Below are positions 42,569 through 52,364 of a DNA stretch of 64,000 nt, piece by piece; the first letter of the stretch is position 1, and each line of letters begins with the position of its first letter. The DNA is from Flavobacteriaceae bacterium D16 (GTDB lineage: Bacteria; Bacteroidota; Bacteroidia; Flavobacteriales; Flavobacteriaceae). The position numbers and the translations under genes are program-made. A model generated the notes under the pieces. That model saw nothing but the letters and a program-made list of their open reading frames with translations, was not told the DNA's origin and ran no database searches. The stretch lies in NCBI GenBank assembly GCA_021295155.1, contig JAJTJC010000036.1:806001-870000 (forward strand). The letters are read 5' to 3'.

Positions 42569-43282
42569 CTAATTAGTATTTAGCGTATCCGTTCCCAGAT
42601 ATCCGTTGTCTTTGTTGTAGTACCAGGCCCGTACTTTGGGCATACGGATACCCTGAATTAATTCTTCGCCCTCCAACAGAATATACTCCCCATCATTTTT
42701 GGACTCATCATGAAAGAACTGGTAGACCTCCATGGCATAGGTTTCCGGATTGAAGTAGAAATACCAGGTATCTTCCCCGACTTCCTGATCATAGGTGACC
42801 TTTAAAACCAGGTAGTTCTTATTTTTGAATTTCTTTTTCTGAATAACTGGATCAAGCTGAGTACCTGGGTCTTTCAGCTTCATTGGCAGGCCGTACAGGT
42901 AGGTATAATAATCCTTCATAAGGTTCGCCCGTTCACAATTCAGCTGTTTAGCCTCAGCTTCTTCGGTTGTGTAGTCTTTACTTCCATTCAATAGCAACGA
43001 ACAATTATCCCCTTCAAGTAGGTAGGTCAGTTTTGTGCTAGCCCGATTCACGTTCAGACGAAAGTAAGATCGTGGTAGATCCAGGCTTATTTTGCTTTTT
43101 CTCACCGGACGGTTGGGGCTTTCCATTACCACAATAAATTCTCCCTTAAAGGCATTCCATTGGTTTTCTGGATCGTGATAGGCAATTGCTTTTTGTAACA
43201 ATTCCGAACCGCTGAGTTGCTGCGCAATTGCGATCAGTGGAAAAAAGATCGTTGCAGTTAAGAATAAAAGAAGTTTGCGCAT
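42569..43282 (-). CDS. secreted DUF6503-like protein
   Basis: I use the ATG at 43282 (237 residues), because a TATCTTAG box at 43311-43304 would put the transcript start next to the alternative ATG at 43300. A signal peptide (MRKLLLFLTATIFFPLIAIAQ) is followed by SGSELLQKAIAYHDPENQWNAF and strand-rich sequence with FKNKNYLVLKVTYD, WYFYFNPETYAMEVYQFF and RMPKVRAWYYNKDNGYLGTD, as in DUF6503 proteins of Flavobacteria. The fold may resemble the lipoprotein carriers LolA/LolB; function is unknown. It is divergent from the Na/Pi transporter and shares an intergenic 11-bp repeat array with it. Confidence 0.7.
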   Translation of the reverse strand: MRKLLLFLTATIFFPLIAIAQQLSGSELLQKAIAYHDPENQWNAFKGEFIVVMESPNRPVRKSKISLDLPRSYFRLNVNRASTKLTYLLEGDNCSLLLNGSKDYTTEEAEAKQLNCERANLMKDYYTYLYGLPMKLKDPGTQLDPVIQKKKFKNKNYLVLKVTYDQEVGEDTWYFYFNPETYAMEVYQFFHDESKNDGEYILLEGEELIQGIRMPKVRAWYYNKDNGYLGTDTLNTN

Positions 43283-43320
43283 CGCCAGGAATATTTTCAT
43301 GGCCTAAGATACAGAATCTA

Positions 43321-43358
43321 TTAACTTTACATTAAATTAACCATAACGCAACATTTAC
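43321..43358. promoter_or_regulatory. 11-bp direct-repeat array (Pho-box-like) between DUF6503-like and Na/Pi genes
   Basis: On the plus strand TTAAC (43321), TTAAA (43332), ATAAC (43343) and TTTAC (43354) recur exactly every 11 bases. PhoB/PhoP boxes use the same spacing, and the unit resembles the Bacillus TTAACA box. A TATCTTAG box faces the minus-strand gene ten bases away at 43311-43304. Regulation of the phosphate transporter is inferred from the gene next to it. Confidence 0.5.
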
Positions 43359-43376
43359 CTAAAACAATAAGGATCT

Positions 43377-45155
43377 GTGGACTACGGCATTGCGGACATC
43401 TTAATATTATTGGGCTCCCTGGGGCTCTTTCTCTTTGGGATGAAGGTCATGAGCGACTCCCTGCTAAAACTGGCCGGGAATCGCATGCGTGCCATCCTGG
43501 CTACGATGACCTCCAATCGTTTTCTGGGGATCACCACGGGCTTCCTGATCACTTCGGTGATACAATCTTCTTCGGCCACCACACTTATGGTAGTTAGCTT
43601 TTCCAACGCTTCTTTATTAACCCTTCCAGAGGCCATCAGTGTAATAATGGGGGCCAATATAGGGACTACGGTAACGGCCTGGATAATTGCTATTCTCGGT
43701 TTTAAGGTGAGCATGAGCTCTATTGCCCTTCCACTGGTAGGTGCAGGCATGCTCCTTACATTTTCCAAAAAGGAACGTTTTCAAAACTGGGGGGTTTTTA
43801 TCGTTGGATTTGCGGTATTGTTCATTGGTTTGCAATTCCTCAAGGATGCCATGCCCAATATAAATGAGAATCCCGGCATACTTGAATTCTTGAGGAGATA
43901 TACTGAAGGGGGCTACGCGTCTATCCTGTTGTTTATGATGCTTGGAACCGTGCTCACGGTTTTGATCCAGTCGTCCAGCGCTACCATGGCCCTTACATTG
44001 CTGATGACGGCGGAAGGCTGGATTCCCTTTGAAATGGCAGCGGCGATGGTTTTGGGAGAAAATATAGGGACTACTATTACCGCTAATATCGCGGCCATAG
44101 TAGCCAATTTCCAGGCGAAGCGAACGGCCCGTGCACATTTGATTTTTAACCTGTTGGGGGTGCTTTGGATGTTGCTGCTTTTTTATCCTTTTATTAGAAT
44201 GATCGACTGGTTAACCCAGTTTCTCGGTTCGCCTTCCCCATTCGTGCAGGTTGCTGCGGTTCCTGTAGCTATATCCCTTTTCCATACCGTGTTCAATATC
44301 CTCAACACCCTCCTTTTGGTTTGGTTCCTGAAACCTATTTCATGGGTTGTTCAAAAAGTGGTTCCTGAAGTAATCCCCCCGGAAAAGCAGATTGAAGAAC
44401 CCAAATATCTCAACGAAAAGATGTTGAAATATCCGGAGACCGCCATTGCCACCCTGGAAAAAGAGACAGACTACCTGTTTCGGAATGCCATTTTTGAAAT
44501 CGTGACCCATGCCCTGAATATCCACAGGCAGGATGTGCTGTCTGACTTGAAATCCAAGAAGGTTGTCAAGAAGTCAGTAAGTGATTTTAAGACTGATGTG
44601 CGGGCCCTTTACCTGGCTAAAGTAAAGACTATTTACGGTGAGATCATTCGTTTTGCATCACAAACACAAACGAGACATGCGCTTACGGTCGCACAGAATA
44701 AACGCATAGCCCAAATTAAAATAGCAAACCGCAGGATGGTTTCCATTATTCGGGATGTTACGGATCTCAATCGAAATGTAAGCCTTTTCCTGGAATCGGA
44801 TAACGAACATGTAAAGCAGCAGTATAATAATTTCAGAAGGGTAGTAGTTAAGGTGCTCAGAGTGATCTATTCTATATCCAGGGAAACGGATCTTCATCAA
44901 TATCTCACAGACCTACAAAATCTTGAAAGGGATATACAGAAGAGAATGGAAGCAGGCAATATCGAGATTGATGCCCTGATCCGAAATGATGATATTACTA
45001 CGGATATGGCCTCTTCCCTGGTGAATGACCAGGACCATGTTGAGGATTTGGTAGAGAAGTTGATTTTCGTGGCTGAACTACTTTATATATCCCGAGACCC
45101 GCTTGCCTTGAATAATCAGGACCTATCGGAAGTCGATACTATGCTTTCCGTGTAG
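43377..45155 (+). CDS. Na/Pi cotransporter with C-terminal PhoU-like domain
   Basis: The start is GTG at 43377, giving 592 residues; the next ATG (43440) would remove the first helix and the conserved GSLGLFLFGMKVMSD. The transport domain (about 1-320) holds the inverted-repeat marks TSVIQSSSATTLMVVSF and TVLIQSSSATMALTLLM, the QSSSAT motifs of the NptA/PNaS family. After about residue 345 a long helical region (ATLEKETDYLFRNAIFEIVTH and onward) resembles PhoU. These proteins bring in phosphate with sodium; the PhoU-like tail may sense or control flux. A second phosphate transporter lies 0.6 kb downstream on the other strand. Confidence 0.92.
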   Translation: MDYGIADILILLGSLGLFLFGMKVMSDSLLKLAGNRMRAILATMTSNRFLGITTGFLITSVIQSSSATTLMVVSFSNASLLTLPEAISVIMGANIGTTVTAWIIAILGFKVSMSSIALPLVGAGMLLTFSKKERFQNWGVFIVGFAVLFIGLQFLKDAMPNINENPGILEFLRRYTEGGYASILLFMMLGTVLTVLIQSSSATMALTLLMTAEGWIPFEMAAAMVLGENIGTTITANIAAIVANFQAKRTARAHLIFNLLGVLWMLLLFYPFIRMIDWLTQFLGSPSPFVQVAAVPVAISLFHTVFNILNTLLLVWFLKPISWVVQKVVPEVIPPEKQIEEPKYLNEKMLKYPETAIATLEKETDYLFRNAIFEIVTHALNIHRQDVLSDLKSKKVVKKSVSDFKTDVRALYLAKVKTIYGEIIRFASQTQTRHALTVAQNKRIAQIKIANRRMVSIIRDVTDLNRNVSLFLESDNEHVKQQYNNFRRVVVKVLRVIYSISRETDLHQYLTDLQNLERDIQKRMEAGNIEIDALIRNDDITTDMASSLVNDQDHVEDLVEKLIFVAELLYISRDPLALNNQDLSEVDTMLSV

Positions 45156-45257
45156 TCGGTAAAGGTCCTTTTTCAACTTTTCTAAGCTATTTGGTATCAT
45201 TTATAGAATATTTTGATAAAATTAAATATCTGTAAAACAGATAGATATGGATATAAT

Positions 45258-45321
45258 GTAAATATAATGTAAACAAAAAGTTACATAAACATTTATTTAA
45301 AGTAAAATAATTGTATCTTTA
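45258..45321 (+). promoter_or_regulatory. 11-bp repeat array plus -7 box before the MORN-repeat gene
   Basis: GTAAA (45258), GTAAA (45269), GTTAC (45280), ATTTA (45291) and GTAAA (45302) are spaced by 11. A TATCTTTA box follows at 45314-45321, with the last repeat where a -33 element should lie and no TTG present. This is the arrangement expected when an activator replaces the upstream promoter element. The sequence is very AT-rich, so chance matches are a risk. Confidence 0.4.
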
Positions 45322-45363
45322 CGCCGTTAAATCATAGTAAAGTCACGTTTAAAAAGTATTGTT

Positions 45364-45714
45364 ATGAAAATAGTTACGACATTGATAGTATTCTTATTTG
45401 TTTCCCTCATATATGCCCAGGAAGTAAAACCCATTTTTGAACAACAGGGAGATATGGTGAAGGCCATTTATTTCCATGATAATGGTGTTGTTGCACAAAC
45501 AGGATTCTATGAAGATGGAAAACCTGAAGGAGAATGGAAAATGTACAATAACGAAGGCAAAAAAATAGCCTTGGGTCAATTCACTTCTGGAAAGAAAACT
45601 GGCAAATGGTTTTTTTGGGAAGGAGAAGGACTTCGTGAAGTAGACTACACAGACAACAAAATTGCTAATGTCATTAAATGGACTGATTCCGAGTCAGTAG
45701 TTCTCAACAAATAA
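45364..45714 (+). CDS. secreted MORN-repeat (YwqK-like) protein
   Basis: The 116 residues start with a signal peptide (MKIVTTLIVFLFVSLIYAQ) and hold three MORN-type repeats: YFHDNGVVAQTGFYEDGKPEG, WKMYNNEGKKIALGQFTSGKKTG and WFFWEGEGLREVDYTDNK. The Y/W-G-NGKK-G rhythm is that of the proteins labelled YwqK-family antitoxin, but in Bacteroidetes these short exported forms are not shown to be antitoxins and no toxin gene is next to it. Its place between two phosphate transporter genes and its repeat-array promoter suggest expression under the same conditions. Confidence 0.82.
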   Translation: MKIVTTLIVFLFVSLIYAQEVKPIFEQQGDMVKAIYFHDNGVVAQTGFYEDGKPEGEWKMYNNEGKKIALGQFTSGKKTGKWFFWEGEGLREVDYTDNKIANVIKWTDSESVVLNK

Positions 45715-45732
45715 AATTTAAGAACCCAATAA

Positions 45733-45763
45733 AAAACCGCGTTTGAAAAGACGCGGTTTTTTT
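45733..45763. terminator. strong terminator between MORN-repeat and PiT genes
   Basis: AAAACCGCGT (45733-45742) is perfectly complementary to ACGCGGTTTT (45751-45760) around an 8-base loop, followed by TTT. It is flanked by A-run and T-run and so serves both convergent genes. Confidence 0.9.
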
Positions 45764-45776
45764 ATGTTTTAATCTA

Positions 45777-48056
45777 TCATTTGTTATCCTCTAAAACTGC
45801 TGGTTCAATATTACCATCATATTCAATATAATAGAGTTCCAGCAAGGCCATAAGCGCTTTGATCAGATCTCTGGTCTCTGTTAGTAAGTTAAAGTATAAA
45901 GTAGTGTTTTTTGGGCTGGACTCCTCGCTTCTGGTCCTGGCAATTTGCCTCGAAATCTTGTCACTCACCATGTCAAACAAAGCCTGTTTGCGGTTTAAAA
46001 CCCCGCCAATTTCTTCAAAGGATTTATGAATAAACGCTTCCCGGGTTTGGTCCAGTAGGTTTTCCAATTCCACATCCAGCTCTTTCAGTTCGCGGATCTG
46101 ACTGTAGGTGAGTTTTTTGTGGTTGTTGTTGACATGTTTATGACTGATCTTGCCAATATATTCGAGTGATTGCGCCATATCCTGCAGATAGTCCAGAATG
46201 TTCAGATAAAAATTACTGGCCCCAACACTGGCTTCATCCAGATTTTTAATAAAGTAGAAAATATTATCTCTTAAATGGTCTATCTCCTTAGACAACTTGG
46301 AAACCTGGCGCATTCCTTTCTTAAGCAGATCCAAATCGTGCCGTCCTAGTCCGTCAATGGCGTTGGTATATATTTTATTGCTCCGTTTGGCCACATTTGA
46401 TATGTTATCTGCACTTTCCGTAATAACTCCTTGAATAGAGCTGCTTTCGGCTCTCCTCAGACCATCTTCAATTTTTGCTTTTCTGTTTTGTTTTCTATGG
46501 CTGATGTAGTTCCTTATCAGAATGAACCCGGCAAAAACAAGTAAAAAGATAAGCCCAATAAATCCTCCTATATGGATAAGATAAGCCACAATGGCAGCAG
46601 CAACAAAAGCACTAAGGGCTGTCATAAACCAACCGCCAATTACATTTAATACCCCGGCTACCCGATATACAGCACTGTCCGCTCCCCACGCGCGATCAGC
46701 CAAGGAAGTTCCCATAGCTACCATAAAGGTTACATAAGTAGTGGATAACGGAAGTTTCATAGAGGTGGCAATAGATATCAATACACTAGCTACCATGAGA
46801 TTTACAGCTGCCCTAACCATGTCAAAGGCGGGTTTATCCAAAACCTTGTTCTTTGGGTTGTAAATATTAGGTTGAATGAATTGTCGGTCTATTCGGTCTC
46901 TTACCCTCATGGGAAGCATGCCATTGATGCTTTCGTAGGTCCTTACGGAAAATTTTACAACCTGCCTGGAGAGGTAATTGGGCTGAAACCGTTCCTGTCC
47001 CTCATCCTGACGGGATAGATCCACACTGGTTTGGACTACTTTGCGGGCTTTTGTAGAAAACCAAAGCGTAATCACCATTATCATGCCTGATAGTAACAAG
47101 AGCAGTGTTGGTGTCTGTACTGCAGCATTCAGACTCTCCATGGTGTATTCCGAGGCGGGAATCCCCATGCCCTGCCAGTCCTGATACGATTGTAATGCGG
47201 CAATAGGAACGCCTATAAAGTTAACCAGATCGTTTCCTGCAAAGGCCATGGCCAGGGCAAAGGTGCCCAAAACAATAATGACCCGATAGATATTGGCTTT
47301 AAAAATGGCCGTAATTCCCCGTGAAACTATACTCCAGAATACAATATTGGATATAATAAACAACAGAGTATTGGTGTTGACCCATTCAGAAATATAGCCA
47401 TCGAAAATGGCTGCACTTTTTAAGCCTTTGATAAGTATAAAATATACGATGGCTGTAATCGCCAACCCTCCAAATATAGCCCCTGTCCATTTTGGTTTTT
47501 CCTCAAACTTAAAGGAGATCAGTAGGCGGGAAACAAATTGTACAAAAACCCCTATAGTAAAGGCTACAACTACAGACAGCAGTATCCCAAAAATAATTGC
47601 AGTAGCTTTTTCGGTATTGATATAACCGGCCAGATCTGCGAATCCCCCTCCTGCGTCAATTATTTTGATGGTAGATATAGCAACTGCTGCTCCTAATAGT
47701 TCAAAGACAATAGAAACCGTAGTAGAGGTAGGCATGCCCAGGGTATTGAAAAAATCCAGCAAGAGGATATCCGTGAGCATCACGGCCATAAAGATGATCA
47801 TGATCTCGGAAAACATAAATTCACCAGGGTTAAAAATCCCTTTACGGGCTACCTCCATCATACCGCTGGAAGAAATGGCTCCCATAGCAATTCCGATACT
47901 GGCCACAATCATGATGGTCCGGAAGGAAATGGCTTTAGAGCCAATTGCTGAATTCAGGAAGTTAACGGCATCATTACTTACTCCTACCACAAGATCGGTG
48001 ATGGCCAGTGCGGCCAGAGCAATAATCATCACCAAATAAATATCTTCCCCCATCAA
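45777..48056 (-). CDS. PiT-family phosphate transporter with fused PhoU-like domain
   Basis: At 759 residues this is far longer than a simple PiT (400-500). The PiT signature appears twice, as VGVSNDAVNFLNSAIGS (about 24-40) and AFAGNDLVNFIGVPIA (about 271-286), with GMPTSTTVSIVFELLGAA and KLPLSTTYVTFMVAMGTS in the two halves. About ten to twelve helices reach residue 510. The last 230 residues are soluble and helical (ADNISNVAKRSNKIYTNAI, KLSKEIDHLRDNIFYFIKNL, LTETRDLIKALMALLEL), as in PhoU. PiT proteins use a proton or metal-phosphate gradient. In many bacteria the PhoU-like partner is a separate small gene beside pit; here it is fused. Confidence 0.9.
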   Translation of the reverse strand: MMGEDIYLVMIIALAALAITDLVVGVSNDAVNFLNSAIGSKAISFRTIMIVASIGIAMGAISSSGMMEVARKGIFNPGEFMFSEIMIIFMAVMLTDILLLDFFNTLGMPTSTTVSIVFELLGAAVAISTIKIIDAGGGFADLAGYINTEKATAIIFGILLSVVVAFTIGVFVQFVSRLLISFKFEEKPKWTGAIFGGLAITAIVYFILIKGLKSAAIFDGYISEWVNTNTLLFIISNIVFWSIVSRGITAIFKANIYRVIIVLGTFALAMAFAGNDLVNFIGVPIAALQSYQDWQGMGIPASEYTMESLNAAVQTPTLLLLLSGMIMVITLWFSTKARKVVQTSVDLSRQDEGQERFQPNYLSRQVVKFSVRTYESINGMLPMRVRDRIDRQFIQPNIYNPKNKVLDKPAFDMVRAAVNLMVASVLISIATSMKLPLSTTYVTFMVAMGTSLADRAWGADSAVYRVAGVLNVIGGWFMTALSAFVAAAIVAYLIHIGGFIGLIFLLVFAGFILIRNYISHRKQNRKAKIEDGLRRAESSSIQGVITESADNISNVAKRSNKIYTNAIDGLGRHDLDLLKKGMRQVSKLSKEIDHLRDNIFYFIKNLDEASVGASNFYLNILDYLQDMAQSLEYIGKISHKHVNNNHKKLTYSQIRELKELDVELENLLDQTREAFIHKSFEEIGGVLNRKQALFDMVSDKISRQIARTRSEESSPKNTTLYFNLLTETRDLIKALMALLELYYIEYDGNIEPAVLEDNK

Positions 48057-48099
48057 ATTTCAAATAAAGACAAAAATGGAACTATATTCTGTTTCCGGC

Positions 48100-48126
48100 G
48101 TTAATATAAAGTTATCAATGATAAAC
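48100..48126 (-). promoter_or_regulatory. 11-bp repeat triplet upstream of the PiT gene
   Basis: Read on the minus strand, GTTTA (48126-48122), ATAAC (48115-48111) and TTAAC (48104-48100) are spaced by exactly 11. The gene starts at 48056. The promoter -7 box is poor (TATAGTTC near 48083). The same unit and spacing occur at the other phosphate-island promoters. Confidence 0.4.
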
Positions 48127-48132
48127 TCAAAA

Positions 48133-48155
48133 ACCACCATGATGGTCATGGTGGT
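48133..48155 (-). terminator. terminator of the TonB receptor-lipoprotein operon
   Basis: ACCACCATGA (48133-48142) and TCATGGTGGT (48146-48155) are perfectly complementary with a 3-base loop. On the minus strand the stem is followed by TTTTTG. It lies 49 bases past the lipoprotein stop. Confidence 0.82.
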
Positions 48156-48203
48156 CTTTATCCTTGAGATTTCGGACTGTTTTTTCGGTGGGCTAAGCCG
48201 CGT

Positions 48204-49403
48204 TTAGTTTATTCCTACGGTCCATCCTGCTCCCCAGGTGGCCACATCTGTTCCGGTACCGTTACCGTCACCTGAGATAAAATCAGCTTCGGTAAAGGTA
48301 AATCCTGTATCATTTTTCAACTTGGTAACCACGTTATTAAAAGTAACGTCTGTTACGCTTAGCAGGCCATCAAGCACACCCTGTCCCGTTGGGTTGTCAC
48401 CAAGGTCACCATCCAGGTCAAAGGCCTCATCAAAGTCGTTGATTACCACGTTGGTGAAGATTCCCTGAGTACCGGCACGCAAACGGATGGCTTCACTTCC
48501 GTCATCGGCACCAGCAACAGTTACGTTAGTTACGGTTGGGGCAGAGAAATACCCGGCCACATTGCTGAAGTCTGTATTGTATCCGTCGCACTCAAAGGCT
48601 TTATCATGTGAGGCTCCGTGCTGAACATATACATCGGTCAGCGTTCCTGTGTAGCCTTCTGTCCAGTCTATCGAATCGTCTTCAGAATTGACTACCACCA
48701 GGTGGCTGGCGTTTACGGTTCCTCCAAAGAATTCGAATCCATCATCAGATCCTTCAAAGATTTGCACGAAATCAATGGTAGTACCACTACCCACTGCATA
48801 GAGGGAAAGACCATTAAGCTCAGCATTACCGTCAATAGCACCTCCGGCATACTCGATACGCAGGTACTGGATATTTCCTGAATTATCCGCTGCAGTATCT
48901 CCCCCATAGGAAAGACCACCTACTTCGGATGTAGCGGTATCCGTTGAACCATCTGCTGTGGAGTTGATAGGAGCACGACCGCAGATTACCAGGCCACCCC
49001 AGTCACCTGAAGAGGGTGAGTTGGCATTGGAGGTCATAACAATTGGGTTACTCGCATTCCCTACAGCATTGATTGAAGCTCCCTGCTGAATAGCGATATA
49101 AGCATTAACCCCTACAGGCTGTGCTTTGATCGTCATACCGGCTGGAATAGTTAAGGTGGTGCCATCAGCCATAAGCACAGGTCCGGTTACAATGTATTCC
49201 ACATCCGGATCCAATGTCAGGTTTTCGGTATATACCCCGCTGAGGTTTACCGTAGTATCTGCTGGCGGCTCACCACCTCCCGGAGCATTTACAATGTTTG
49301 TAGTACTGTTATCGTTTATAACAATATCCGGGGTGTCGTCGCTTTCACAAGCAATGAATAAAGCAGCGGCGAACCCTAAAATTAACAATCTGTTTTTCAT
49401 CAT
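48204..49403 (-). CDS. surface lipoprotein with beta-helix-like repeats, partner of the TonB receptor
   Basis: The 399 residues start with a lipoprotein signal ending in AALFIAC (cysteine 19), then the acidic ESDDTPD typical of lipoproteins exported to the Bacteroidetes cell surface. After a Thr/Pro-rich linker come many short strand repeats rich in Gly, Asn and Asp (LTIPAGMTIKAQ, ANSPSSGDWGGLVICGRAP, NGLSLYAVGSGTTIDFVQIFEG, DDGSEAIRLRAGTQGIFTNV), as in right-handed beta-helix or pectate-lyase-like proteins. The strongly acidic character suggests calcium or other cation binding. It starts 17 bases after the receptor gene and is not SusD-like. No catalytic site is evident. Confidence 0.8.
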   Translation of the reverse strand: MMKNRLLILGFAAALFIACESDDTPDIVINDNSTTNIVNAPGGGEPPADTTVNLSGVYTENLTLDPDVEYIVTGPVLMADGTTLTIPAGMTIKAQPVGVNAYIAIQQGASINAVGNASNPIVMTSNANSPSSGDWGGLVICGRAPINSTADGSTDTATSEVGGLSYGGDTAADNSGNIQYLRIEYAGGAIDGNAELNGLSLYAVGSGTTIDFVQIFEGSDDGFEFFGGTVNASHLVVVNSEDDSIDWTEGYTGTLTDVYVQHGASHDKAFECDGYNTDFSNVAGYFSAPTVTNVTVAGADDGSEAIRLRAGTQGIFTNVVINDFDEAFDLDGDLGDNPTGQGVLDGLLSVTDVTFNNVVTKLKNDTGFTFTEADFISGDGNGTGTDVATWGAGWTVGIN

Positions 49404-49420
49404 TCTGAGTTTAATTTGAA

Positions 49421-52243
49421 TTAAAATTTATATTTAAGGGTTAGCCCTACGTTAACCCCAAGGTTATACTCTCGTATTACAATATCTCCTATACCTGTAT
49501 TTTCCCGGATCAGGGAGATGTCTGGATTTAATAAGTTACTAGCATTCAGATTAGCTTCGAAGTGCTCCCCAAAAGCATTTCTCCACACAAAATTTAAAGT
49601 AGGAACTGATTTTTCAACAATGTTCCCCAGGCTACCCGCACCCAGCGAAAAAATCCGATCTGAGAAATACGAATACACCAGGGTAGCTTTAGGCTGGTAT
49701 TTACCGAATACCGGGCTGAAATTTAAATCTGCATTCATTATAAAGGGAGAAGCCCCTTCCAGTTCATCAGAATCCCTGTCAAAGGAAGTACCAAAGGTAT
49801 TATCCTCGCCCGCAGGGATATCTTTCAGGTCCTGCTTTGTTTTGGTATAAGCGGCATTAAGTCCAAGGGATAGAACACCAATCCCGTCCGCGCTCGACAA
49901 CAGGTTTTTGCGCACCTCCAATTCTACTCCATAAACCTCAGCTTTATCCCCGGTTCGAAAAAAGCGTTGTGTTCCTGTAGCATCGGCTGCAACCACCCGG
50001 TTAACAGGATCCAGGATAGTTTTTGCAAAGGCAGCAACAGAAATAATTTCACCCTGATCCAGGAACCACTCGTATTTCAGGTCAAAGTTGTATACATCCG
50101 AGTAAGTAGGACCTTCTCCCGAAAGTCCTCCCAGCAAATCCGGGTTACCTCCTACCCGTTGGGTAACAGATTCATAAACAAAAGGAGCTACCTCCTTAAA
50201 TTCCGGGAAAGATGCCGTTTTACTAAATGCGAATCGCAAGTTGCTATCATCGTTAAGTGCATAACGAATGTTCAAGCTGGGGAGGAATATGTTTTCGTAG
50301 ACATTTCTTTCCCCCGGATCGTCTGGTCTGATATTGATTACCTCATAAACCACGTCCTGACTGAAGGATTCAACGCGAATCCCTGGTATGATACCCAATT
50401 TCTCTCCCAAATTAATTTGTGCATTTGCGAAAAGCCCGTGAATATTCAAGTTGCCCTTATACGTATTCTCAGGAAGACCGGGACGGTTTCGATTCCCTAT
50501 CTCATTATTAATAGGATTTAAGACAATCAGATCATACAATCCACTACCAGCAGGAATATTTATATTCTCGACGTTAAAGATAGAATTGAAATTGTTTACA
50601 TCCGTGACTGGGGTATTGTCCCGATCCTGTATTTCATAGCCGTAGCGGATACTGTTGAACCTACGTTCTTTTCTCCTTCCGTTATATCCAAAATTTAAGG
50701 AAACCTTCTCAGAGAGTTCGAAGCCTAGATTAATGAAACTGTTTAACTCGTCGTCTTCAATACTCTGAAAGAATCGCTGGTTGTCAAAAGCAATATTGGT
50801 ATAGAACACCGGGTTTGTAGCGGGATCATTATCGAGAGCCAACTGGTAATTCTCAAGAGTGATGCGCTTACGATCCGGTTCATCAGAAAAGACTTTGTTA
50901 AAACCAACTCCCCAACCCAGGGAAATATTATCATCAAATTTGTGGGTGCCGTTTAACTGGTTTACAAAGATCATGTCCTGGTTGAACTGCACATTCATGA
51001 CGTAAAATCCCTGGTCGGTATCGATAATCGCATCCCGGTTGGTACCTTGTCCCTCTGTGCCATAATACCCGACAGCATCAGAAGAGCTGTTAATAAATAA
51101 AGAGTTAAAGTTTACTTTGTGGTTCTCATTTATTCGATAACCAATATTACCCAGTGCAGTCGTTGTAGTTTTATAGGCATATTCCCGAACATTTGGGAAA
51201 CTTACCTTGAGTACGTTGGTGAAATCCACCGCAGGGCCTTCCCAGATTTCATAGCCATTTCTAAAGCTGGCCGCGCCAAAAAAACTCAGTCTTGAAGCTT
51301 TGCCGAAAGAATAAGAATATCCCCCTTCAATAGCTCCCGAAAAGTTTACCGGGTCCCAGGCGCTTTGTGGGTCTACACCATGCGACAATACAATAGCAAA
51401 GGGATCATTATCATAACGGTTATAGAATCCATAATTACTTGGTCCTTCACTCCTAACAAAATCTTCACCCGCGGCATTGGAATTCTGTCCGCTACCCAGG
51501 GTGACTTCAAAGTATCCATTCCCGGTGTAATTCTTGGAATTGATATTGACATTTCCTGCGGCGAAGTCTCCATAAAAAGAGGTAGAGTAGGCTTTATTAA
51601 CCGCAACATTTTCAATAATGCTTGAAGAGAAAAGGTCCAGATTTATATTCTTCTTATTGACGTCATTAGAGGGAAGTGATAAACCATTCATGGTGGTGGT
51701 TTGATACCGGTCTCCCAAACCCCTAACATAGACATTACTAGATCCTTGTTGCTTAGAGATTCCTGATATCTGGGCTACAGCTGCGGCTGCATCATCAATA
51801 CCTTTCAGGCTTAGCGCTTCGGCACTAATGGCCTCCTGTATGATAAGGGATTTTTTCTGCTCCAGCAACAAGGCAATTTCAGAATCCTTTCTTGTAGATG
51901 TTGTAATTACCACTTCGTCCAGGCTAACACTACCGGTTCCTAAGGCTGCATTTATCTGGGTTACCTTATCCGCTTCCACGATTACGTTGGGAATTTCCAG
52001 GGTTTCATATCCCAGGAAACTAAACACCAGGGTATAAGTTCCAGGCTCCACTGCCGGTAGTTCATATAAACCGTCGAAATCTGAGGTAGTCCCTTTTGAT
52101 GTGCCCTTAATTAAGACATTTGCAAAAGCAAGAGGTTCATTATTGGCATCCTTGTCCGTAAGTTTACCCACGATGCTTCCGTTTTGCTGGGCAAAAGTGA
52201 AACCTGTAAAACAGATTAATATAAAGGTCAGTAATGGTCTCAT
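49421..52243 (-). CDS. TonB-dependent receptor (CarboxypepD-like N-domain)
   Basis: In order the 940 residues show a signal peptide (ending GFTFAQ), a carboxypeptidase-regulatory-like domain (22-105, IVGKLTDKDANNEPLAFANVLIKG), the TonB-box region SLDEVVITTSTRKDSEIALL (about 112-131), the plug (about 135-235, SSNVYVRGLGDRYQTTTMNGL), and a 22-strand-type barrel ending in the aromatic LGVNVGLTLKYKF. It lacks the SusC signature and its partner is a beta-helix lipoprotein instead of SusD. The substrate is unknown. Two phosphate transporters nearby and a long 11-bp repeat array upstream point to uptake of a phosphorus compound, as inference. Confidence 0.92.
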   Translation of the reverse strand: MRPLLTFILICFTGFTFAQQNGSIVGKLTDKDANNEPLAFANVLIKGTSKGTTSDFDGLYELPAVEPGTYTLVFSFLGYETLEIPNVIVEADKVTQINAALGTGSVSLDEVVITTSTRKDSEIALLLEQKKSLIIQEAISAEALSLKGIDDAAAAVAQISGISKQQGSSNVYVRGLGDRYQTTTMNGLSLPSNDVNKKNINLDLFSSSIIENVAVNKAYSTSFYGDFAAGNVNINSKNYTGNGYFEVTLGSGQNSNAAGEDFVRSEGPSNYGFYNRYDNDPFAIVLSHGVDPQSAWDPVNFSGAIEGGYSYSFGKASRLSFFGAASFRNGYEIWEGPAVDFTNVLKVSFPNVREYAYKTTTTALGNIGYRINENHKVNFNSLFINSSSDAVGYYGTEGQGTNRDAIIDTDQGFYVMNVQFNQDMIFVNQLNGTHKFDDNISLGWGVGFNKVFSDEPDRKRITLENYQLALDNDPATNPVFYTNIAFDNQRFFQSIEDDELNSFINLGFELSEKVSLNFGYNGRRKERRFNSIRYGYEIQDRDNTPVTDVNNFNSIFNVENINIPAGSGLYDLIVLNPINNEIGNRNRPGLPENTYKGNLNIHGLFANAQINLGEKLGIIPGIRVESFSQDVVYEVINIRPDDPGERNVYENIFLPSLNIRYALNDDSNLRFAFSKTASFPEFKEVAPFVYESVTQRVGGNPDLLGGLSGEGPTYSDVYNFDLKYEWFLDQGEIISVAAFAKTILDPVNRVVAADATGTQRFFRTGDKAEVYGVELEVRKNLLSSADGIGVLSLGLNAAYTKTKQDLKDIPAGEDNTFGTSFDRDSDELEGASPFIMNADLNFSPVFGKYQPKATLVYSYFSDRIFSLGAGSLGNIVEKSVPTLNFVWRNAFGEHFEANLNASNLLNPDISLIRENTGIGDIVIREYNLGVNVGLTLKYKF

Positions 52244-52267
52244 TCAGAAGGTTTTCATTTTCTGGGG

Positions 52268-52364
52268 CAAAGAAAGGCTGAGGGTGTAAAGGTCCTGTTA
52301 CCTGCAGGTTAAACCTTTATGTAGTTTGCGTTACCAAAATGTTATGTGATTAAGCCAATGTTAA
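52268..52364 (-). promoter_or_regulatory. eight-unit 11-bp repeat array and -7 box upstream of the TonB receptor
   Basis: On the minus strand the units TTAAC (52364), TTAAT (52353), ATAAC (52345), GTAAC (52334), TACAT (52323), TTAAC (52312), GTAAC (52301) and TTTAC (52290) are spaced by 11, except one 8-base step between the second and third. The run ends ten bases before TTTCTTTG (52275-52268), one mismatch from TAnnTTTG, which lies about 25 bases before the ATG at 52243. Both order and spacing look like an activator array. Confidence 0.5.

Follow-up and report, generated by a model that had tools for sequence, protein, structure and literature searches.

Flavobacteriaceae abound in the sea and on plants, and Riemerella belongs to the order Flavobacteriales. 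The phosphate genes of Flavobacteriaceae are known so far from transcriptomes and proteomes. The PhoP box of Bacillus is made up of TTAACA units with an 11-bp period. Here we describe arrays with the same period and nearly the same core word, in a different phylum and promoter type, from a phosphate island of approximately 9 kb in Flavobacteriaceae bacterium D16. The island lies in the window, which is the whole 64-kb stretch of DNA that was analysed (C11:806001-870000 of the 3.22-Mb genome, labelled G000). We propose that these arrays are very likely the Pho box of Flavobacteriaceae, with head-to-tail tandem sites every 11 bp for a PhoB-like regulator. In E. coli and Streptomyces, the Pho box recognized by PhoB or PhoP consists of at least two 11-nucleotide direct repeats before phosphate genes, with CTGTCAT or GTTCACC as the core; the number and conservation of the units vary and the consensus depends on the species (accessible part of PMC4415409). 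The flavobacterial arrays are alike in their 11-bp direct repeats before phosphate genes. They differ in having a TTAAC-like core, in partnering the -7 box of Bacteroidetes (accessible part of PMC9723704), in lying at a fixed distance from that box in two registers and in being reversed at phoB and at a gene for a small MORN-variant protein.

Several reports from Bacteroidetes provide closer comparisons, each cited for its accessible part. The PhoP of Riemerella anatipestifer was shown by electrophoretic mobility shift assay to be autoregulated, and the most conserved nucleotides of its motif from DNA affinity purification sequencing were TTTAACA (PMC9603813). These resemble the flavobacterial core. 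The 583 peaks of that study include virulence and redox targets, and its accessible text does not describe an 11-bp array, an orientation or a -7 distance (PMC9603813). In Flavobacterium johnsoniae, the genes for a TonB receptor, a lipoprotein and PhoB lie side by side and are listed as induced by phosphate depletion, with values of 8.02, 9.91 and 3.06 in one column whose header is outside the accessible part (PMC8115612). In Bacteroides fragilis, PhoB is a binder of the pstC promoter. A phosphate/sulphate permease has the value -52.2 there in a column with strongly negative pst genes, the header of which is likewise outside that part (PMC3547664). Both regulons are similar to the present one in gene content, through the TonB receptor and lipoprotein beside phoB in F. 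johnsoniae (PMC8115612) and through pst and the phosphate permease in B. fragilis (PMC3547664). The main text of the former paper does not contain the words ‘pho box’ or ‘promoter’, and that of the latter does not contain ‘consensus’ or ‘repeat’. Pho boxes near plcP have been predicted computationally in marine isolates, with a flavobacterium among the studied strains; the accessible part of that paper shows neither the box sequence nor whether the flavobacterium was among the predictions (PMC4796936). Searches of the open-licence literature turned up no 11-bp Pho box described for Flavobacteriaceae, only the Riemerella motif and these unspecified plcP predictions (accessible part of PMC4796936). 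New here, as read from the compared genomes, are the wide conservation, the two-register phase lock to the -7 box and the reversal of the arrays at phoB and MORN genes.

Tandem arrays and their distance to the -7 box

Four promoters of the island carry arrays, all at the places given in a preliminary description of this DNA. The array of the TonB-receptor promoter (52286..52364, minus strand) contains eight units with an 11-bp period and one 8-base step, as described before: TTAAC, TTAAT, (8-base step) ATAAC, GTAAC, TACAT (weak), TTAAC, GTAAC and TTTAC. Besides being evident in the sequence and in orthologues, it harbors the best dyad of the window and an exact triad (52286-52311). Its last unit ends 10 bases before the -7 box TTTCTTTG (52268..52275, minus strand), in which TTTG starts at +14, and this arrangement, hereafter the 14-lock, was matched at C11:858267-858300. 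The 8-base step (TTAAT-ATAAC) is present in the receptor arrays of both the window (52345-52353) and Lentiprolixibacter aurantiacus (locus L070), and several Maribacter PiT promoters (L016, L017, L020-L026) have such a step as TTAAC-ttc-ATAAC.

The promoter of the PiT phosphate permease has the dyad ATAAC-N6-TTAAC (48100..48115, minus strand), supported by the sequence, by orthologues and by a unit matrix built from 113 distinct units in the orthologous promoters of other genomes, with the window and L070 excluded. In its -7-like box CATTTTTG (48071..48078, minus strand), TTTG is found at +25 from the last unit (25-lock match, C11:854071-854114). A longer array had been proposed for this promoter; the ATAAC/TTAAC pair at 48115-48100 is conserved, and the upstream GTTTA corresponds to no shared unit (by eye, 60 of the 80 PiT promoters). 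The array of the Na/Pi cotransporter promoter (43321..43358, plus strand; sequence, matrix and orthologues) read backwards also precedes the gene of a DUF6503 protein, which is faced by the -7-like box TATCTTAG (43304..43311, minus strand; from the sequence). The words reported earlier at 43321, 43332, 43343 and 43354 are present; the register favoured by the matrix and by orthologous loci such as L070 and L003 lies 5 bases away, with TTTAC at 43326, TTAAC at 43337 and GCAAC at 43348. At the MORN promoter, the repeats described on the plus strand exist, and their words are those of a minus-strand array GTAAC/TTTAC/TTTAC (45258..45284, minus strand, read 45284-45258) that is reversed relative to the MORN gene. 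This array contains an exact triad and the best triad of the window and has counterparts across a set of 30 MORN promoters; the -7-like box of the gene, identified from the sequence, is TATCTTTA (45314..45321, plus strand).

We examined conservation by measuring distances between five TTAAC-like words in the upstream regions of orthologues from 80 PiT loci; these belong to Flavobacteriaceae wherever their title gives that rank or a lower one, and some uncultured bins are included. Upstream regions were dropped when the alignment started after residue 40 or when they were shorter than 100 bases (receptor from 48 to 45, lipoprotein from 20 to 17, Na/Pi from 12 to 11), and the 45 receptors include those aligned over the N-terminal domain only. 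On the sense strand, a spacing of 11 was found for 71 pairs in the receptor promoters (other spacings mean 3.3, highest 13; n=45), 82 in the PiT promoters (mean 4.0, highest 14; n=80) and 12 in the Na/Pi promoters (mean 0.3, highest 2; n=11), with 1, 2 and 0 antisense pairs, respectively. The lipoprotein promoters yielded 5 such pairs compared to a mean of 0.25 (n=17), and the control promoters, CTP and DUF3078, yielded none. Promoters of the HD gene, which is divergent from a receptor gene in the window and in many loci, had spacing-11 pairs on the minus strand only (69). After thinning to less than 65% identity, a step that left out the window's own MORN and phoB, the receptor promoters retained 22 pairs (mean of others 0.4; n=15), PiT 8 (0.2; n=10) and Na/Pi 9 (0.1; n=9). 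The preliminary description had asked for conservation at orthologues, and the spacing of 11 was enriched there, also after thinning. It had also counted DUF6503 in the regulon, a membership that appears weak: no clear forward array of its own was found (plus strand 3 pairs, highest other 4; minus strand 5, highest other 2), and the gene is covered only where it shares an intergenic region with Na/Pi or, in other genomes, where it directly follows PiT.

By the unit matrix, the three best dyads and the three best triads of the 64 kb belong to the TonB-receptor, Na/Pi and MORN regions. When each intergenic region was shuffled 1000 times by dinucleotides and scored on both strands, the best dyad gave p = 0.001 for Na/Pi, 0.006 for MORN, 0.008 for PiT and 0.002 for the TonB receptor, and the best triad gave 0.001, 0.001, 0.051 and 0.001 in the same order. 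The best matches thus exceeded shuffles of the same intergenic DNA, a comparison that had been called for earlier. In the whole window, three dyads scored at least 16 (mean 0.24 over 100 shuffles) and three triads at least 10 (mean 0.16 over 100 shuffles).

The arrays are also locked to the core promoter. The -7 consensus of Bacteroidetes is TAnnTTTG (accessible part of PMC9723704), and the window boxes TTTCTTTG and CATTTTTG are near matches to it. TTTG starts 14 bases past the last unit in 40 of the 42 dyad-containing receptor promoters; at PiT it starts 25 bases past that unit, in 74 of the 80 promoters. Without a condition on the next base, the lock was seen in 40 of 45 and 75 of 80, and by named genera in 12 of 15 and 20 of 21. 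The two distances differ by one repeat, and the window's own receptor and PiT promoters fit the 14-lock and the 25-lock, respectively.

We searched for the dyad with a locked box in 80 genomes, one per genus, and examined the loci of 30 matches of each lock. The 25-lock pattern occurred 62 times compared to 22 in the control. Within 10 kb of a known PiT, MORN or phoB place lay 34 of these 62 matches and 44 of the 83 matches to the 14-lock, with anchors that omit a few second or partial MORN matches and take PiT places from only 19 genomes; this leaves 28 and 39 matches, numbers close to or lower than those of the controls. The 25-lock sample comprised 18 matches before PiT (one being the window's own), one before a lipoprotein like that of the window, one before an alkaline phosphatase, one before a porin-like barrel (not Pfam-tested) and nine before other or no genes. 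In the 14-lock sample, seven matches lie before receptors resembling that of the window, one before a distant receptor (28% over 169 aa), five before lipoproteins and one before a PstS-like protein; two Porin_O_P porins, one similar porin (not Pfam-tested), two unplaced loci and eleven other or no genes account for the rest. The PiT and receptor matches are partly expected because the pattern was drawn from relatives; the PstS-like, porin and phosphatase matches were not expected. In two different genera (L238 and L241), 25-lock matches precede similar small secreted lipoprotein-like proteins of 164 and 165 aa.

The arrays, their orientation, the spacing lock, the conservation and the association with phosphate genes are properties of the DNA itself. 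From these we infer that a PhoB-like protein binds the arrays, that binding is activating and that low phosphate is the signal. The unit, approximately NTAAC(C/A)TTA every 11 bp, would be bound by a PhoB-like regulator of the OmpR family (C11:287121-287807). At the receptor and PiT genes, the phosphorylated regulator would bind the sense tandem, stand in for the -33 element and bring the sigma factor to the -7 box. As the distances to that box are one repeat apart, the 14- and 25-base geometries would present the same helical face. With its unit, orientation and -7 distance defined, such a box would allow phosphate regulons to be predicted from sequence and would offer a direct test of activator action at promoters without a -33 element.

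Compared with other Pho boxes, the arrays contain at least two 11-bp direct repeats and lie in promoters of phosphate-acquisition genes. Their place relative to the core promoter is fixed at the receptor and PiT genes; the Na/Pi promoters have no common offset and the phoB offsets range over 41-50. The E. coli core CTGTCAT is replaced by a TTAAC-like core. CTGTCAT is not defining across phyla because the consensus varies between species (accessible part of PMC4415409).

Reversed arrays at phoB-like and MORN genes

The phoB-like set was drawn from 60 family genomes, 57 of which had a match, and the MORN set from 120 genomes, 95 of which had one; each set consisted of the 30 best. In the phoB-like promoters, 38 spacing-11 pairs were on the opposite strand (others mean 2.9, highest 11; n=30) and 3 on the sense strand; the corresponding numbers for the MORN promoters were 51 (others mean 4.2, highest 14; n=30) and 0. 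The MORN genes of the 80 PiT loci gave a similar picture, with 1 plus-strand and 43 minus-strand pairs. Among the 29 MORN loci other than the window's own, the anchor pair was found in 26, of which 15 had a third unit at +22; PiT, a receptor or the lipoprotein lay within 1.5 kb in 15 of the 29. In the direction of MORN, 12 of the 26 anchored promoters shared the offset of their -7 box. The reversed arrays at phoB showed no phase lock, the box offsets being spread over 41-50.

We considered that the reversed arrays at phoB and MORN could be ordinary forward arrays of divergent neighbour genes, which we regard as unlikely. In 9 of 30 loci, as judged by reading the neighbour proteins, phoB is divergent from a receptor or lipoprotein gene, and a further array at these genes is locked to their own box (at 14 in 5 of 8, at 25 in 1). 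A few 14-lock matches directly upstream of MORN genes also point away from them (G059, G019, G047 and G040). However, at the 21 phoB loci with other divergent genes, TTTG was found at 25 in one and at 14 in none, the commonest offset being 44 (5 loci). In the window the Na/Pi gene lies in tandem upstream of MORN, so there is no divergent gene at that place. The MORN arrays read backwards had TTTG at 25 in 3 of 29 and at 14 in 1, compared to the 12 of 26 boxes at one offset toward MORN. By eye, the divergent gene at the remaining phoB loci often encodes a small secreted protein with the look of a C-terminal sorting domain.

Under the Pho-box reading, the reversed repeats at phoB and MORN would probably reflect autoregulation and a different mode of control. 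We offer, tentatively and with some doubt, the broader possibility that across Flavobacteriaceae a single regulator reads its 11-bp repeat in two opposite orientations, for two distinct kinds of promoter control. Sense arrays locked at 14 or 25 to promoters without a -33 element would activate transport genes. The reversed ones, at phoB and MORN, would tune or repress, and the MORN protein, so far unstudied, would belong to the core of the phosphate response. The box itself makes the small, conserved MORN gene a candidate for new membership in that response.

Candidate regulators and points against the Pho-box reading

The OmpR-type DNA-binding domain was matched twice in the genome. One match is a PhoB-like OmpR-family response regulator (L001; G000 C11:287121-287807) paired with a PhoR-like kinase, the other an RprY-like OmpR-family regulator (L002; C22:47915), also with a kinase. 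The best NCBIfam regulator model for L001 is PhoB, and that for L002 is RprY (NF051850), below its cut-off (287.7 vs 370 bits). In 57 of 60 family genomes the PhoB-like gene was matched once, and a dyad was found at a PiT gene in 11 of the 16 genomes having both the PhoB-like gene and PiT.

It appears improbable that the arrays are bound by the RprY-like protein or by another regulator of 11-bp direct repeats and that the signal is not phosphate. Tandem binding is common to OmpR-family regulators, and the authors of the Riemerella study termed the PhoP motif ArcA-like (accessible part of PMC9603813). Three genomes lack a PhoB-like match; all have the RprY-like gene, well kept at 72-84% identity, and one or two of them retain arrays at PiT or at an adjacent porin. 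However, genes reached without choice by function proved to be phosphate genes, phoB-like promoters carry the repeats, and receptor and lipoprotein genes with locked arrays adjoin phoB. One of the three genomes, G023 (99% complete), has the RprY-like gene yet no dyad at PiT.

A number of results weigh against a PhoB-type Pho box. L001 scores below the PhoB cut-offs (NF053854, 210.3 vs 270 bits; TIGR02154, 209.3 vs 296.2 bits). No dyad was found within 220 bases of PiT in 5 of the 16 genomes with the PhoB-like gene and PiT. Without a PhoB-like match, G048 (82% complete) has a dyad at PiT, and G055 (86% complete) has none at PiT, but carries a 25-lock array in front of a porin-like gene that lies just upstream of PiT; of the three genomes without such a match, only G023 thus fits a dependence of the arrays on PhoB. 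The Na/Pi promoters lack a fixed -7 offset (none of the 7 with a dyad at a common place), the window's PiT dyad ranks only tenth in the 64 kb by the unit matrix, and the 83 matches of the 14-lock in the 80 genomes are not far above the control of 56. Single window shuffles reached scores of 19.3 (dyad) and 20.1 (triad). Genome-wide, neither the dyad DTAACNTTNNNDTWAC (17 matches vs 21 in the reversed control) nor the exact triad TWAC-N7-TWAC-N7-TWAC (3 in 3.22 Mb vs 6 in the reversed control) is enriched. In the literature, OprP was not induced in F. johnsoniae (accessible part of PMC8115612) and pstS was up 8-fold in the Riemerella phoPR mutant (accessible part of PMC5399024). The core of the preliminary description, a PhoB-type Pho regulon, is nevertheless favoured by the shuffles, the conservation, the phosphate-gene context and the phosphate response published for such genes in relatives, with PhoB as the presumed binder.

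The counts within the genome are informative by position. The 9-kb island holds 3 of the 17 matches of the dyad DTAACNTTNNNDTWAC and 2 of the 3 exact triads, the latter with a probability of approximately 2e-5 under uniform placement by our own arithmetic. Since the reversed triad occurs six times, it is the location of the exact triads and not their number that stands out. Chance periodicity in AT-rich intergenic DNA, with which the genome-wide dyad and triad counts and the comparable top scores of single shuffles would agree, has a negligible probability and is refuted by conservation, the spacing of 11 alone being enriched, on one strand, at orthologous promoters, after thinning and in lock with the -7 box. 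The loose dyad was rejected as a genome-wide finder for its lack of enrichment over the reversed control, and TAACN{3,14}TAAC, with 1042 matches in the genome and 2990 in the reversed control, was not used. The third exact triad (C11:217060-217085; L160 1501-1526), before a SusC-type receptor gene beside a LacI-type regulator gene, was judged to be a chance match.

Genes of the phosphate island

The genes encode, in order of position, the DUF6503 protein (42569..43300, minus strand; Pfam PF20113), the 592-aa Na/Pi cotransporter (43377..45155, plus strand; Pfam PF02690, NCBIfam TIGR00704) and the 116-aa MORN-variant protein (45364..45714, plus strand; PF07661 below cut-off). The 759-aa PiT permease (45777..48056, minus strand; PF01384) has a PhoU-like tail below the Pfam cut-off, and this tail alone matched PF01895 (PhoU) with 20.7 bits vs a cut-off of 23.5. 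A lipoprotein-like protein without a Pfam or NCBIfam match (48204..49403, minus strand) is encoded downstream of the 940-aa TonB receptor (49421..52243, minus strand; Pfam PF00593, PF13715 and PF07715).

No standalone PhoU family was found at E<=0.001 in the whole genome; PhoU is not strictly absent, because the PiT tail gives a sub-cut-off match. A search for Porin_O_P at E<=0.001 was also negative in the whole genome, though the PhoB-like/PhoR-like pair is kept.

Among the 80 PiT loci, the closest TonB receptor is that of L. aurantiacus (L070), with 90% identity. The PiT proteins of the window and this locus are only 65% identical, which suggests a replacement of PiT, or paralogues, in this lineage.

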